The translations under genes were made by a program, and so were the position numbers. A stretch of DNA of 64,000 bases from Candidatus Thorarchaeota archaeon (GTDB lineage: Archaea; Asgardarchaeota; Thorarchaeia; Thorarchaeales; Thorarchaeaceae), in the NCBI GenBank assembly GCA_013388835.1, contig JACAEL010000069.1, positions 1 through 64,000 of the forward strand. Direction: 5' to 3'. Shown here in pieces: positions 11,587 through 17,696 of this stretch; the stretch's first letter is position 1; each line of letters opens with the position of its first letter. The notes beneath the pieces were generated by a model that saw only the letters and a program-made list of their open reading frames with translations, had not been told where the DNA came from and ran no database searches.

Positions 11587-12918
11587 TCACTTCAAGCCGC
11601 GTTGTTGGACAAACTCGAGCAGTACGTCGTGAAGGTCTGGCTTGCCAATCTCTTGGAGGTCATATCTGACTCTAGTACTCGGTTTGTTGATTCTTATCAC
11701 CTTGGTCAGATCGATTGGCGTACCAATTACCACCGCGTCAACGTCAGCCTTACTGATTGTCTTTTCAAGCTCGAGCATCTGTTCCCGTCCGTAGCCCATT
11801 GCAGGCAAGACGTTCTCCAGGTGAGAGTATTTCTCGAACGTCTTCTTGATACTGCCGACTGCAAAAGGCCTTGGGTCAACAATGGTAGCTCCAGCCTTCT
11901 TAGCCGCAATGAATCCAGCCCCATACTTCATGTCCCCATGAGTCACGGTCGGGCCATCCTCGACAACAAGCACTCGCTTGCCTCTTATGAGGGCCATGTT
12001 GTCCACGCGCACGGGAGATGCTGCGTCAATTATGACAGCATTGGGGTTCACTTCCTGTACGTTTCGTCGGACGAATTCCACATCCTGGTAGTCCGCAGTC
12101 TCCACTTTGTTGATGATGACCACATGAGCCATCCGTAGGTTTGTCTCACCGGGGTAGTATGAGACCTCGTGTCCAGGTCTGTGTGGGTCGACCACAACTA
12201 TGTGAAGGTCAGGCTTATAGAATGGGAAGTCGTTATTGCCGCCATCCCATGTGATCACATCCGCTTCTTGTTCCGCCATCTCAAGAATCCGGCCGTAGTC
12301 GACTCCCGCATACAATACCACGCCCATACCAATCATGGGTTCATACTCCTCCCGTTCCTCTATCGTACACCTGTACTTGTCCATGTCCCCCATACTGCCG
12401 TACCTCTGTGCTATCTGGGTTGTCAGGTCAGGGTCATATGGCATGGGATGGCGGATGTTGACGGGCTTGAGTCCCATGTCGACTAGTATCTGATTGACTC
12501 TCCTCGAGGTCTGACTCTTTCCACAACCCGTTCTGACTGCTGTGACCGCGATCACTGGCTTCTTGCTCTTCAGTATCGTGGTACGAGGACCCATCAGTCT
12601 CATGTCCGGGCCAAGCGATGTCACCCATGCGATCTTGTGTCCCACGGTCATGTGCGGCAGGTCAGAGTAGGCGAGGATGCACTGCTCAACATCGTATTGC
12701 TTGATCAGTTCGGGCAGCTTCGCCTCTGGATATATCTTGATTCCATCCGGATATAGTCTGCCCGAGAGCTCGGGCGGGTAGACCCTGTCTCCAATCCCGG
12801 GTATCTGTTCAGCAGTGAAAGCTACCACTTCGTAGCCCTCATTCTCTCTGAAGTACACATTGAAGTTGTGGAAGTCTCTTCCGGCGGCTCCCATTATTAT
12901 GACTCGTTGTCTCGTCAT
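11587..12918 (-). CDS. Cyclic 2,3-diphosphoglycerate synthase-like GTPase
   Basis: A 443-residue protein of COG2403 type. It opens with a Rossmann-like VIIMGAAGRDFHNFN and carries a P-loop TAVRTGCGKSQTSRR at about residue 128, then TWDGGNNDFPF, VVVDPHRPG and VIINKVE. This layout is shared with cyclic 2,3-diphosphoglycerate synthetase of methanogens, which closes 2,3-DPG with ATP to give a compatible solute or phosphate store. Many archaeal relatives are annotated only as predicted GTPases, so the reaction here is probable rather than certain. Start ATG 12918. Confidence 0.8.
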   Translation of the reverse strand: MTRQRVIIMGAAGRDFHNFNVYFRENEGYEVVAFTAEQIPGIGDRVYPPELSGRLYPDGIKIYPEAKLPELIKQYDVEQCILAYSDLPHMTVGHKIAWVTSLGPDMRLMGPRTTILKSKKPVIAVTAVRTGCGKSQTSRRVNQILVDMGLKPVNIRHPMPYDPDLTTQIAQRYGSMGDMDKYRCTIEEREEYEPMIGMGVVLYAGVDYGRILEMAEQEADVITWDGGNNDFPFYKPDLHIVVVDPHRPGHEVSYYPGETNLRMAHVVIINKVETADYQDVEFVRRNVQEVNPNAVIIDAASPVRVDNMALIRGKRVLVVEDGPTVTHGDMKYGAGFIAAKKAGATIVDPRPFAVGSIKKTFEKYSHLENVLPAMGYGREQMLELEKTISKADVDAVVIGTPIDLTKVIRINKPSTRVRYDLQEIGKPDLHDVLLEFVQQRGLK

Positions 12919-13149
12919 GCGGAATCACTCCACTGGTCCGTTGTCGAGCCTGACTGGCCCTGCAGCGCAGATAAGTAATTGTCGGTGCGAAGTTTCTCTA
13001 AATCGTCGCATTGGTACATTGATGATATTCTCCTTTTCATGAATGACCTCTCGCAAAATCGCACCATAACACAAAGACTTAAGTTCGACCCAAGCTGCGA
13101 ATTAGAACACCCCTCCACTGTGCGCTATATTGGTTCATGAGGTGCAGTT

Positions 13150-13701
13150 GTGAAACTAGTAGAGCTTGCCCAGGAGTCCCTGCGATTGTTGAAGGAGAGT
13201 GGAGCGGAGGGCCTACGCAGCGATGATTTGGCAAGGATGCTGATGACTCCTAAGAGGAGGGTATACGACGTTGTGGCGGTGCTCAGAGCCCTCGGTCTAG
13301 TGACTACCCGGAGACGTTTCAACGGTACGACAATCACTTGGGTCGATCGTTCTAAGGAGTTCGTTCCCAGGGCCGAACACGAACGGCTCAAGAACGAGGT
13401 TCAGGCCCTGGACGCAGACAGAAAGGCTCTGCAGATTCAGGTTGTCGAACTGAAGGAGGAGCTGAGACAGGCCAGAGCCAGAGTGGCATACGAAGCAAGA
13501 CCTGTCCAGTCTGTCACGAGAACCGAGTTTAGCACAACACAACTTCGTGTACGATGTCATACGCCCGGCGGTTTCAAGAGAGTGACCAACTCAGGGATGG
13601 AGGTCCTGCTTGAGACCAGTGAGCCCGGTATGTCCGTAGACCCATCTGTCACACAGTGGAACGAGAACGAAGAACTCCTTCGTGTTCTTCAACGAGTCTG
13701 A
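13150..13701 (+). CDS. E2F/DP-like winged-helix DNA-binding protein with coiled coil
   Basis: Residues 1-66 match the E2F/DP winged helix in order and spacing: a first helix LAQESLRLLKES, then LRSDDLARML, and the recognition helix KRRVYDVVAVLRALGLV holding RRVYD at 36-40. In eukaryotic E2F the corresponding RRIYD supplies the arginines that read TTSSCGC. A basic wing (TTRRRFNGTTITWV) follows. Residues 75-112 form a heptad coiled coil, where eukaryotic E2F has its dimerisation helix, and a beta-rich tail of 70 residues comes after. Start GTG 13150, with CTATATTGG at about 13121-13129. The similarity is read by eye; homology rather than convergence is not proven. Confidence 0.7.
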   Translation: MKLVELAQESLRLLKESGAEGLRSDDLARMLMTPKRRVYDVVAVLRALGLVTTRRRFNGTTITWVDRSKEFVPRAEHERLKNEVQALDADRKALQIQVVELKEELRQARARVAYEARPVQSVTRTEFSTTQLRVRCHTPGGFKRVTNSGMEVLLETSEPGMSVDPSVTQWNENEELLRVLQRV

Positions 13702-13704
13702 CAC

Positions 13705-14085
13705 TCAGCCCTGTCGAAGCACGGCTCGAGCTCCTCTCCTAACTGTCCTGAGTCCTTCAAGGACAGAGTCCGCCGAGATGATACGCCCTATGACATTCAC
13801 AGGTGAGAATGTTGTCATCTCGTCAAGGTAGATACACAAACAGTCTCCGAGGGGCATATACGCGACTTGTCCTCTCTTGACCTGCCTCGTAGCCTTGATG
13901 TTGCCCTTGTTAATGCCGACTGTGACCCTCATTTCACCTCTCAGAAGAGCTGCCTTGCCCTCAATTGGCAGTCGGCTTTTCAACTCCTCCACTATGCTTG
14001 GCGCATGGACACGGTCCAGCACAGCCTGTACCATGGTACTATCGTCGAATACGACGTCTATCCTGAGTTCGCTCTCGGCGGCCAT
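13705..14085 (-). CDS. Cyclophilin-like domain protein
   Basis: A 126-residue beta-rich protein with the features of the archaeal/bacterial cyclophilin-like family (PF04126 type): LKSRLPIEGKAALLRGEMRV near the start, GQVAYMPLGDCLCIYL in the middle, and TTFSPVNVIGRI. These proteins have a cyclophilin fold, but prolyl isomerase activity is usually unproven. Start ATG 14085. It is convergent with the E2F-like gene, with three bases between stops, and divergent from the VWA operon. Confidence 0.75.
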   Translation of the reverse strand: MAAESELRIDVVFDDSTMVQAVLDRVHAPSIVEELKSRLPIEGKAALLRGEMRVTVGINKGNIKATRQVKRGQVAYMPLGDCLCIYLDEMTTFSPVNVIGRIISADSVLEGLRTVRRGARAVLRQG

Positions 14086-14195: not shown

Positions 14196-15320
14196 CTGCC
14201 ATCAAGACTGGATGTTGCATTTGTCGTGGATACCACGGGCTCTATGAAGGATGACATTAGGGCGGTGAAAGACAGCCTCTTTGACATTGTCGACCGTGTG
14301 ACAGAACGCACAAGAGGACTTGTCATCCGGTTTGGGATAGTGTCGTACAGAGACCACCCGCCCCAAGACAAGACCTACGTCACAAAGATCTTCGACTTCA
14401 GTGATGACATCAAGAAGGTCCACAGGGAGATATCGAAGCTTGACCCATCTGAGGGGGGTGACATGCCAGAGGCGGTTGCCGATGCGCTACATGACGCCCG
14501 TACGAGTCTCAGTTGGATGCGGGACTCATACAAGGTTCTGATTCTGGTTGGAGATGCGCCTCCTCATGGCAGGGCGTACAACAACATGGGAGATGACGCA
14601 TGGCCCAACGGTTGTCCGTGCGGGTATGACCCCAAGAATGAGGTCCAGCTGCTCAAGAAGGAACACGGCTCGACGGTGTTTGTGTTTGTCTGCGGCTGCA
14701 ATCCTGTTGTGGAGGACGCTTTTCGGAGCATTGCCAATGCCGTAGATGGTGGGGTATATTACTCACTCGTAGAGGTACGACATGTCCCTGACGCCATTCT
14801 GAAGATTCTTGAAGGAATGAGCGACCTCATCGAGTCGGATCAGAAAGTGCTAAGATACTACCAGTCACATGACGGGGTATTTGACCTTGGACAGGCAGCA
14901 TCGGACCTTGGGCTTGAACTCCGAGAGGTGAAGACCAGCCTCTCTCGACTCATTGAACTTGGAACTGTGCCTCGGTGGCCGAAGGGTCGTCCTCTCTCCT
15001 CCGGACAGATAGGTCTCTCGGTTGAACTGGGAGACGTGCCTGACGCCATACTCCCTGGTAAGGCATTCAAGTACCAGGTAAGGGTCAAGAACCCTAGTTC
15101 TGCAACAGCAGGGGTCCGAATAGTCGTGTCAATTGTGTCCGAGGACGGTGTCTCAGAGATAACAAATGAACAGCACGAGATTGCCCCCCGAGGTGACTCC
15201 ACAATAGACCTGAAGCTCGTGCCCATAGTCTACTCGAAGGGAAAGGCCAGTGTGAAGGTCGAAGTATACTATGGTTCAAAGCCTCTAGCATCCCGAATCT
15301 ACTCCACACGGGTCTACTAG
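14196..15320 (+). CDS. VWA-domain protein with winged helix and Ig-like tail
   Basis: The N-terminal VWA domain has an intact metal (MIDAS) site: VVDTTGSMKDD for the DxTxS motif, SEGGDMPEA, and ILVGDAPPHG, the pattern seen in VWKA-like VWA domains. It is followed at about residues 215-260 by a winged helix (VLRYYQSHDGVFDLGQAASD) and then by a CARDB-like beta-sandwich (VRVKNPSSATAGVRIVVSIV). The first ATG/GTG/TTG in frame is GTG 14226, which would remove the first VWA strand; the complete domain needs LPSRLDVAFVV, which follows a CTG at 14196 with GAGGAG at 14181-14186. I therefore set the start at CTG 14196. It is first in a four-gene operon. Confidence 0.75.
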   Translation: MPSRLDVAFVVDTTGSMKDDIRAVKDSLFDIVDRVTERTRGLVIRFGIVSYRDHPPQDKTYVTKIFDFSDDIKKVHREISKLDPSEGGDMPEAVADALHDARTSLSWMRDSYKVLILVGDAPPHGRAYNNMGDDAWPNGCPCGYDPKNEVQLLKKEHGSTVFVFVCGCNPVVEDAFRSIANAVDGGVYYSLVEVRHVPDAILKILEGMSDLIESDQKVLRYYQSHDGVFDLGQAASDLGLELREVKTSLSRLIELGTVPRWPKGRPLSSGQIGLSVELGDVPDAILPGKAFKYQVRVKNPSSATAGVRIVVSIVSEDGVSEITNEQHEIAPRGDSTIDLKLVPIVYSKGKASVKVEVYYGSKPLASRIYSTRVY

Positions 15321-15331
15321 GAGGTCTACCT

Positions 15332-16483
15332 GTGGAGCTCAAGCTGTTGCAAGGACGGAATCAACAGGGTATGAGCTTCACGAGCCCCGGATGCCTCGGC
15401 GGGAATGTCAAGACGGTCATTATTCGCTCAGAGGGTAGGCTCGTCCTGTCTGACGTGCGACACTCGGACAGAGTGCCAGCCAACAGCATTGTGGTGGATG
15501 CACGTATTGCTGACGCTCTCTTGGCCCGAGAAGGAACCGCCGTTCTGGTGGAGGCTGCGGACGAGGACATACCTGTCTGTGAAGAGATCTCTCTGAGCGT
15601 GAGTTCCCACACCGGGCTTGACTCTGAGAAGGTCGCTTCTGCTGTGTCAAAGAGAGTCACTGACCTGAAGCCCTATGTTGAAGGACTGATACTGCGGAGC
15701 GGTCAGGAGTTGCGGGCCGATGACCTGAGGCTCACATTCCGAGTCAAGTCGGTCACTCCCATGAGCACCACCCACCGGGCTGCGAGAGTCTTGTGGAAGC
15801 GGCTGAATAGGGTTGAGATTGAGGCCACTAGAGAAGCAGAATGCTACAACCTGTGCTGTGTCTTCGAGATGACCTCCACTGTGCACAGGAGTGACATCTC
15901 CATGGACGGTAGGATGGTCACTGAGTGGCAAGCAGCACTGCAGACTGCAAGTGACCTGTTGAACGACCTCATGTCCTGTGAGGCAGTCGCCCTGTTCAGT
16001 GCAATGATGTTCTCCTCATCTGTTGAGACTTTCAAGACGTACGACCCCGATTCAGGCCAAGAGTCTGAGTTCTGCACCGTTGACACGCCAGATGTGGCAA
16101 AGATGCTCTCGCTCTGGATGAGTAACAGGGAGAAAGACCATCGCGGGTCTCCTGCCAGTCCAGGGCTTGCAATAGAGCGTGCTCTTGGACTTGCCTACGA
16201 CATGACCCGCAAGAACGGACTGCCCACAGTCGTGCTCCTGTTCGCCTCGGGTGCTTACTCAGCAGGACCAAACCCTGTGAAACTCGCCACAGTGGACCCG
16301 GGCCAAGAACGCATAGCAGTGTTCACAGTTGGACTGGGCAGTTCTGCAGACATGGATCTGCTAGACGCCATAGCAGAGTCAGGAAGGGGAAGTGGCATTC
16401 GAGTCTCCACGGATGTGGACGCGGAGGCTGTTGAGAGAGCAGTTCATGACTGGGTACATAGGAGGACTGGGATAGTTGGGTGA
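15332..16483 (+). CDS. Cdc48-N-like barrel fused to a degenerate VWA domain
   Basis: Residues about 25-165 read as a Cdc48/p97 N-domain: a double-psi barrel segment (NSIVVDARIADALLAREGTA) then the second subdomain VTDLKPYVEGLILRSGQELR and LRLTFRVKSVTPM, which mirrors the 'PYL...RPV..GD.f.V....F.V....P' pattern of p97. Residues about 170-380 form a VWA fold (TVVLLFASGAYSAG, IAVFTVGLGSSADMDLLDAI), but the DxSxS motif is replaced by FEMTSTVHRSD, so no metal site is expected. GTG 15332 has AGGAGGT at 15319-15325. There is no ATPase domain. Confidence 0.7.
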   Translation: MELKLLQGRNQQGMSFTSPGCLGGNVKTVIIRSEGRLVLSDVRHSDRVPANSIVVDARIADALLAREGTAVLVEAADEDIPVCEEISLSVSSHTGLDSEKVASAVSKRVTDLKPYVEGLILRSGQELRADDLRLTFRVKSVTPMSTTHRAARVLWKRLNRVEIEATREAECYNLCCVFEMTSTVHRSDISMDGRMVTEWQAALQTASDLLNDLMSCEAVALFSAMMFSSSVETFKTYDPDSGQESEFCTVDTPDVAKMLSLWMSNREKDHRGSPASPGLAIERALGLAYDMTRKNGLPTVVLLFASGAYSAGPNPVKLATVDPGQERIAVFTVGLGSSADMDLLDAIAESGRGSGIRVSTDVDAEAVERAVHDWVHRRTGIVG

Positions 16484-16490
16484 TGGGCTG

Positions 16491-17696
16491 TTGACACGAC
16501 TTCAGGCCATGCGCGCCAGCAATGAGGTCTCAGGGTTCATTTGTTCGCGCCTTCCTTCAGGGCGCCTAGAGTCTGGATGTATTGAACAGGGTCTCTTCTC
16601 AAAGGGTACTGAGGGCGAGCTTCGTCTGCGCACGACTCAGGTACAGACTCTGATACCTGCAGACCGGACTGTTCGCCTCTTCACCGAACGAGGAGTGTTG
16701 AAGCAGGGCGACTATGGCATTCTCATGCTGGGCGAGCCGGGTCTGCACTCACCGCGATTCAATGTATATCTTGGGAACGACTCCTCAGAAGGCCAGACGT
16801 TCAGATACTGCGCCGCATTCTGGACTGTGAGCTCAACTCCTGATAGAGTACTTCGGATAGTCCTCAACGAGGCATTGGGCGTCGAGCCACCTCAGAGTAG
16901 CACAGTGTTCACAGACTATGTCGAAGAGGTCAGAGAGGCTGCTTCGATGGGACTCGTGAAAGAGGCACTTGCTATGGCGATACCAAGAGGGAAGTTCAAG
17001 CCCTCCGAATGGGTTAGTGAAGCAACAGCCGCAGAGGAGGACGAAAAGGTCCCGCTAAAGGTGGGCGAACTGAAACTCATACCGAGTCTTGCCCCGGTTG
17101 TGACCACTTGGATTCTTGGACTTGAGCTGGTCAGAAACACAAGAGACCGGTGCGTTGCTGCAATCATGTCACACGATGGTCGCACTGAGTCATGTCTGTG
17201 GGACGGTTTGAGGAGTATGGCTCTGTTCATGGTAACGGAAGGCCTAGATGCGAACCCCCTCCTGCTTTCAACAGTCCAGTCAATGTGGTCGTCTGGGAAA
17301 GAACGAGACCTGCCACCCAAGGTGCCTCAGAGTCGTTCAGACGATACTGCTCAATTGCGTATGCAAGACTCGTCATCCCCAAGTCTCGTCGAGTCAGAGA
17401 GAGTTGAGCGAGGACAAGACAAGACGACAGCGACGCCCAGCGACTTGGACCAGCTCACCCAGCTGATTCGAAACGTGCCCGTCGCTGAGATCCTATCCCG
17501 ACTGGCACATGTTGAACAGCGGGTCGAGTCCATAAGCACTAGGACGCCGTCCTCGCCCGATGAGTCGGGTAGTAGGTCCCTCCACGAACTGACGACCAGT
17601 CGGCTAAAGGAGGTGGTCGAACGGCTCGAACGACTGTCTGAACGTCTAGAGGACTTGGAAAAGAGAATCGCACGGTTTGCTTCGAAGACAGGGTGA
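16491..17696 (+). CDS. Unknown protein of the VWA operon, with C-terminal coiled coil
   Basis: About 400 residues. The first 270 form an alpha/beta region I cannot place, with beta-rich beginnings (SRLPSGRLESGCIEQGL, VRLFTERGVLKQGDYGILML) and helices later (EVREAASMGLVKEALAMA). Residues 275-320 are low-complexity and charged, and the last 60 form a strong coiled coil (LKEVVERLERLSERLEDLEK). TTG 16491 is preferred because GGTGA lies seven bases upstream and overlaps the previous stop; TTG 16476 is an alternative. Tight spacing on both sides ties it to the VWA proteins as a likely partner. Confidence 0.65.
   Translation: MTRLQAMRASNEVSGFICSRLPSGRLESGCIEQGLFSKGTEGELRLRTTQVQTLIPADRTVRLFTERGVLKQGDYGILMLGEPGLHSPRFNVYLGNDSSEGQTFRYCAAFWTVSSTPDRVLRIVLNEALGVEPPQSSTVFTDYVEEVREAASMGLVKEALAMAIPRGKFKPSEWVSEATAAEEDEKVPLKVGELKLIPSLAPVVTTWILGLELVRNTRDRCVAAIMSHDGRTESCLWDGLRSMALFMVTEGLDANPLLLSTVQSMWSSGKERDLPPKVPQSRSDDTAQLRMQDSSSPSLVESERVERGQDKTTATPSDLDQLTQLIRNVPVAEILSRLAHVEQRVESISTRTPSSPDESGSRSLHELTTSRLKEVVERLERLSERLEDLEKRIARFASKTG

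Follow-up and report, generated by a model that had tools for sequence, protein, structure and literature searches.

In animals and plants the G1/S switch is E2F, which in human cells starts DNA replication; the origin of the family remains open. In human E2F8, whose preferred site is TTTTTGGCGGGAAAA, a minor-groove arginine precedes helix 1 of the DNA-binding domain (PMC4686757). In Archaea, E2F homologs have been reported in some Asgard genomes according to a 2024 review, 'The Archaeal Cell Cycle' (PMC7617429, citing Spang 2015 and Zaremba-Niedzwiedzka 2017). The protein described here is of the same kind as those homologs, whose architecture, promoter sites, partners and spread across lineages are not described in the text of that review. 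Our own literature search, which left out many subscription papers and all preprints, likewise found nothing on the architecture, lineage distribution or promoter sites of Asgard E2F. The existence of Asgard E2F homologs is already known; what is new is the architecture that we term type I, together with the promoter elements associated with it.

The gene lies in a window of 64,000 nucleotides, namely positions 1 to 64,000 of contig JACAEL010000069.1 from a Candidatus Thorarchaeota archaeon (GCA_013388835.1). A first-pass annotation of this DNA, made from the sequence without database searches, had proposed an E2F/DP-like transcription factor in an archaeal genome, with the helix order of E2F/DP, an RRVYD recognition signature and a coiled coil directly behind the DNA-binding domain. 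Each of these proposals is borne out by the analysis below (Table 1), and the Asgard provenance agrees with the relatives of the protein, which are named Thorarchaeota.

Domain architecture of the protein

The top Pfam match of the ORF is E2F_TDP (PF02319), which at 37.8 bits and E 1.6e-9 is far above chance and exceeds the curated cut-off of 25.7 bits; a six-frame search of the genome retrieves the same gene at 39.4 bits. In the AlphaFold2 model of the protein (pLDDT 86.5) the winged helix is predicted to consist of three helices (3-20, 24-31 and 35-47) followed by two wing strands (51-56 and 59-64), which is the order seen in E2F/DP. The RRVYD motif, within the longer KRRVYD at residues 35-40, opens the third, i.e. 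the recognition, helix. Directly behind the winged helix the model has a single long helix of 42 residues, which corresponds to the proposed coiled coil. Across 59 aligned relatives G21, R36, R37, D40 and W64 are invariant, and Y39 is conserved in at least 90%.

Beyond the long helix, residues 133-183 form a second conserved module that is absent from the first-pass annotation, with predicted strands at 133-136, 142-147, 152-156 and 161-164 and a terminal helix. All members of type I share one plan: a winged helix, a coiled coil or linker, and the four-strand C-terminal module. The length of the coiled coil differs between members, and proteins of 114-136 aa have none but still retain the winged helix together with the strand module.

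A blind Foldseek search with the model of residues 64-183 against 350,542 PDB chains placed E2F1 at rank 1 and DP1 at rank 2, the two chains being those of the 2aze coiled-coil/marked-box complex, with non-significant E-values of 1.0 and 1.2. VIA alignment of the tail gave Z-scores of 4.0 for E2F1, 3.9 for E2F4 and 3.8 for E2F5, with large rmsd. Comparison by hhalign with the coiled-coil/marked-box (CC-MB) regions of E2F1, E2F4 and E2F5 (the E2F1 query being identical to 2aze_B) detected no profile similarity, and marked-box homology is unsupported by this method. The Pfam E2F_CC-MB model (PF16421) did not match the tail either, an absence of little weight given that no positive control accompanied the search. 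That E2F1 and DP1 are the two best Foldseek matches is striking, but their scores are not significant; an origin of the tail shared with the eukaryotic marked box is possible but has not been shown.

Table 1. Coordinates of the E2F/DP-like gene, its domains, upstream signals and neighbors in the window
Feature	Coordinates	Strand	Basis
E2F/DP-like protein, 183 aa, GTG start	13150..13701	+	ORF; only E2F_TDP match of the genome
E2F_TDP winged helix, residues 4-64 (RRVYD = residues 36-40)	13159..13341	+	Pfam PF02319 and AlphaFold2
Coiled-coil helix, residues 74-115	13369..13494	+	AlphaFold2; sub-threshold leucine-zipper Pfam match at 74-105
C-terminal module, four strands and short helix 172-182; predicted topology like the E2F/DP marked box	13546..13698	+	AlphaFold2 and Foldseek; without profile match
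Shine-Dalgarno-like GAGGTG	13139..13144	+	Sequence; GGGGTGC/GAGGTGC kept in relatives
Putative operator or upstream element TCGCAAAATCG	13051..13061	+	Motif kept in Thorarchaeota-type E2F promoters
BRE/TATA-like element CACAAAGACTTAAGTT	13070..13085	+	Position and sequence conserved upstream; function inferred
Convergent cyclophilin-like gene (PF04126), conserved neighbor	13705..14085	-	Homolog in 44 of 54 loci
Divergent 443-aa protein with weak CobW/HypB-like NTPase similarity, sharing the promoter region	11587..12918	-	In 36 of 54 loci, Thorarchaeota-type only

Phyletic distribution and gene neighborhood

The genome (3.0 Mb, 97.6% complete) contains one E2F_TDP match. Above-cut-off copies, usually single, are present in 75 of the 227 genomes of the phylum, distributed over about 14 families; they are found in 20 of 45 high-quality genomes, 31 of 61 genera and 41 of the 47 genomes of the window's own family, and none of 14 control genomes has an E2F_TDP match. 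Searching genome contigs with the single sequence yielded no confirmed relatives, and the search was repeated with an alignment. A conserved-pattern search of contigs recovered 53 relatives, 52 from Asgard MAGs and one from a Bathyarchaeota MAG. The Asgard relatives span Thor-, Hel-, Baldr-, Odin-, Heimdall-, Sif- and Borrarchaeota; also among them are two labeled Lokiarchaeota and two given only as 'archaeon' that group with Thorarchaeota. Three genomes (G003, G035 and G178) encode two type I paralogs each, which are possible heterodimer pairs. A match of 27.9 bits in a 336-aa frame of G109 was discarded, phmmer not having confirmed its kinship.

A second Asgard E2F_TDP subtype, type II, comprises eight sequences from families f12 and f26 (loci L013, L023, L024, L045, L051, L052, L056 and L063). 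All eight match E2F_TDP, and E2F8 and E2F4 come first in their profile search of the PDB. The turn before their RRxYD motif is three residues longer, and their conserved C-terminal domain is unrelated.

The Bathyarchaeota copy, from HyVt-197 (L123:7793-8134), is a protein of 113 aa that matches E2F_TDP at 49.4 bits (49-50) and adjoins the same convergent cyclophilin-like gene as the Asgard loci. Among 398 genomes of its phylum (on the Thermoproteota side) HyVt-197 itself is the only one to pass the cut-off, with a second, weak match at L125. Since any ancestry outside the Asgards rests on this one MAG, a binning artifact or transfer remains possible. The cyclophilin-like neighbor recurs in Thor-, Hel-, Baldr-, Odin-, Sif-, Borr- and Bathyarchaeota loci, which argues for old vertical inheritance. 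Downstream, at 14226-17696, are encoded VWA-domain and coiled-coil proteins of 364, 383 and 406 aa, the first of which is positionally kept in most Thorarchaeota-type loci.

Conserved elements upstream of the E2F-like genes

The upstream regions of the Thorarchaeota-type genes have diverged except for TTCG[A/G]AAAATCG-like elements adjoining the BRE/TATA-like box. An exact TCGNAAAATCG stands just upstream of the BRE/TATA in 24 of the 38 E2F loci of this type, as against none in shuffles, and is often present twice, with the copies 36 bp apart. The CG pairs of the element are 8 bp apart, unlike the canonical E2F site. The exact sequence occurs twice in the genome, once at 13051-13061 of the window and once within a CDS. 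Across the 47 genomes of the family TTCGRAAAATCG gives 108 matches versus 15 for the reversed control, and family-wide few places have the element as recurrently as the promoter of the E2F-like gene itself. In ten loci (L150, L176, L224-L228 and others) the element also precedes a CheY-like response regulator, at a distance of exactly 218 nt in six of them, and it lies upstream of large secreted or surface proteins (six of cl4 and three of cl9). In L181 and L183 (genomes G193 and G194) TTCGAAAAATCG is situated 84-110 nt upstream of an actin gene, before a TTAAATA-like box. Replication genes were not found among the other promoters with the element.

Two observations bear on how closely the element can be tied to the protein. 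Family f19 (genomes G085-G092) shows an excess of TTCGRAAAATCG (39 versus 7 for the reversed control), and no E2F_TDP match was found in that family; this, together with the presence of the element at several promoters, weakens the link between it and the E2F-like protein. Further, the promoter region is common to the E2F gene and the divergent gene, so that the element could serve the latter.

E2F-consensus sites occur at E2F-like promoters of separate other Asgard lineages and at two Baldrarchaeota paralogs. TTTGGCGGGAAA is matched at 12 of 12 positions upstream of two Heimdallarchaeota copies and GGCGGG is found at a third; three genes of Baldr/Odin type have TTGGCGCC upstream, and a Baldrarchaeota paralog has ATTGGCGCCAAAT. 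Relative to controls, i.e. GC-matched promoters taken at loci of the same kind after exclusion of shared intergenic regions, the best-match distance was lower both for TTTGGCGGGAAA (p 5.4e-4 by gene and 0.011 by genus, the latter using one value per genus) and for TTTSGCGCSAAA (p 2.6e-4 and 0.009, respectively). By-genus enrichment of the short TTTSSCGC was not significant (0.13), and many non-Thor E2F promoters have no good E2F site. Several motifs having been tried, we consider the enrichment to be moderate evidence. An exploratory GGCGSS pattern (8 of 15 versus 3 of 149) had been picked post hoc and was superseded by the test with literature-defined motifs. Genome-wide, TTGGCGCC counts are about two- to three-fold over the reversed control in Baldr-group genomes, with no such excess in two of three Heimdall genomes.

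Mechanistic interpretation and alternatives

The interpretation that we favor, and hold to be fairly likely, is that of an archaeal E2F free of both DP and Rb, probably homodimeric and autoregulatory. The protein is predicted to act as a homodimer whose two subunits are joined through the long helix and the C-terminal strand module, such that each RRVYD recognition helix would contact the major groove of a half-site that contains CG. It would bind its own promoter just upstream of the BRE/TATA and regulate its own synthesis, possibly along with a small set of other genes. Dimerization, binding to the promoter elements and autoregulation are inferences, and on whether a homodimer binds and regulates its own promoter we see the balance as about even.

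The strongest competing proposal grants a homologous DNA-binding domain and assigns it an unrelated function, as a local regulator of surface proteins, signaling or metabolism, with a tail of independent origin and with the elements being read by another factor. The occurrence of the element at the CheY-like regulator, large secreted proteins and actin rather than at replication genes, its excess in f19 without E2F, the lack of profile similarity between the tail and CC-MB and the want of a pocket protein above cut-off would all fit such a regulator. Nevertheless, the recurrence of the element at the E2F-like gene's own promoter, the E2F-consensus sites in separate lineages and at the two Baldrarchaeota paralogs, and the placing of E2F1 and DP1 first in the blind tail search speak against it, and we regard it as unlikely without discarding it.

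The first-pass annotation had itself allowed for convergence, i.e. an ordinary TrmB/MarR/ArsR-type winged helix that gained RRxYD independently and has a generic leucine zipper behind it, and had named as refutation of an E2F assignment the absence of an E2F_TDP hit with best structural matches to MarR/ArsR winged helices. The first part of this did not come to pass. The second did: whole-model fold searches (Foldseek and VIA) gave ArsR, MarR, Z-alpha and generic winged helices as best matches, and E2F/DP DNA-binding domains are absent among the matches listed for the winged helix. Such matching favors generic winged helices but cannot separate the winged-helix families from each other, and hence does not refute kinship with E2F; being filled with generic winged helices, it was uninformative and was dropped as a family test. 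TrmB is the runner-up among winged-helix Pfam families for the ORF (17.6 bits, below its own cut-off) and is weakly matched by 46 of the 59 type I relatives (best 4.5e-6); E2F_TDP is matched by all 59 (best 4.5e-11). Against convergence, the E2F_TDP match covers 61 residues and thus extends beyond the motif alone, and a profile of the 59 relatives run against all PDB sequences retrieves E2F8 (1.7e-11), E2F4 (2.7e-7) and DP2 (0.01) as its sole relatives at E<0.1. The same search returned no further chain at E<0.8, and no MarR, ArsR or TrmB protein despite the many in the PDB. The Bathyarchaeota relative at 49.4 bits, the tail topology and the promoter sites likewise point to E2F. Judged by sequence, homology of the DNA-binding domain to the E2F/DP winged-helix family is firm; the ORF very probably encodes an E2F/DP-family DNA-binding protein, and we consider convergence quite improbable.

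In a tree from 66 alignment columns type I stands apart from a set made up of type II, human E2F1/E2F4 and the Bathyarchaeota copy; eukaryotic E2F is placed close to the type II and Bathyarchaeota sequences with 92/45 support. Its inner forks have supports of 92/45 and 94/47 and come with long-branch warnings; there are only two eukaryotic rows, and the winged-helix row of human E2F1 is an unverified sequence.

That Asgards acquired a eukaryotic E2F gene by horizontal transfer, or that the copies are contaminants, would accord with E2F being otherwise a eukaryotic family. Either is hardly credible, given that the gene is spread over 75 of 227 genomes and about 14 families, with a conserved archaeal gene order and archaeal BRE/TATA-like and Shine-Dalgarno-like signals, and given the deep divergence between lineages and the second subtype.

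Comparison with eukaryotic and archaeal systems

A search for the pocket-protein domain RB_B (PF01857) matched nothing in this genome, and across 59 genomes nothing exceeded the cut-off; the sub-threshold matches are proteins of about 320 aa, sizes that we infer to be typical of TFB. A search for an E2F-consensus regulon in Heimdall- and Baldrarchaeota recovered a few sites in 6 of 11 genomes and no replication-gene set. A role of the archaeal protein in the cell cycle is neither shown nor excluded.

The compact one-domain archaeal version, with no DP found and no pocket protein above cut-off, is a concrete candidate for the ancestral state of E2F, and the promoter elements render its DNA specificity testable. 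If the Heimdallarchaeota copies do bind TTTGGCGGGAAA, the E2F DNA code would be older than eukaryotes and older than its use in the cell cycle. Going further, one may tentatively envisage that the archaeal ancestor of eukaryotes already had the full E2F/DP core (winged helix, coiled coil and marked-box-like module) with the DNA code TTTGGCGGGAAA / TTTSGCGCSAAA, in the form of a homodimer regulating itself and predating DP, Rb and cyclin-CDK control. Eukaryotes would then have derived separate E2F and DP proteins from it and placed the cell cycle under their control; we see this as a possibility, with the balance still against it.

With the archaeal TrmB, MarR and ArsR regulators the protein shares the overall fold and the character of a small regulator near the BRE/TATA, but none of them offers a comparable sequence match. 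Compared with typical E2F1-6, this genome lacks a second E2F_TDP gene in the role of DP, and the protein lacks a Pfam CC-MB match; its 183 aa leave no room for the transactivation/Rb-binding tail of eukaryotic E2F. It has only one E2F_TDP domain, whereas the atypical E2F7/8 have two per chain, and it begins at helix 1, i.e. without the basic N-terminal minor-groove arm of human E2Fs. What it has in common with eukaryotic E2F/DP, of which E2F8 (DBD1, 4yo2) and E2F4 (1cf7) are the nearest solved structures, is the RRxYD recognition helix and the tryptophan at the end of the wing, as well as a helix and then a strand module behind the winged helix; several of the Asgard copies also have E2F-like sites upstream.
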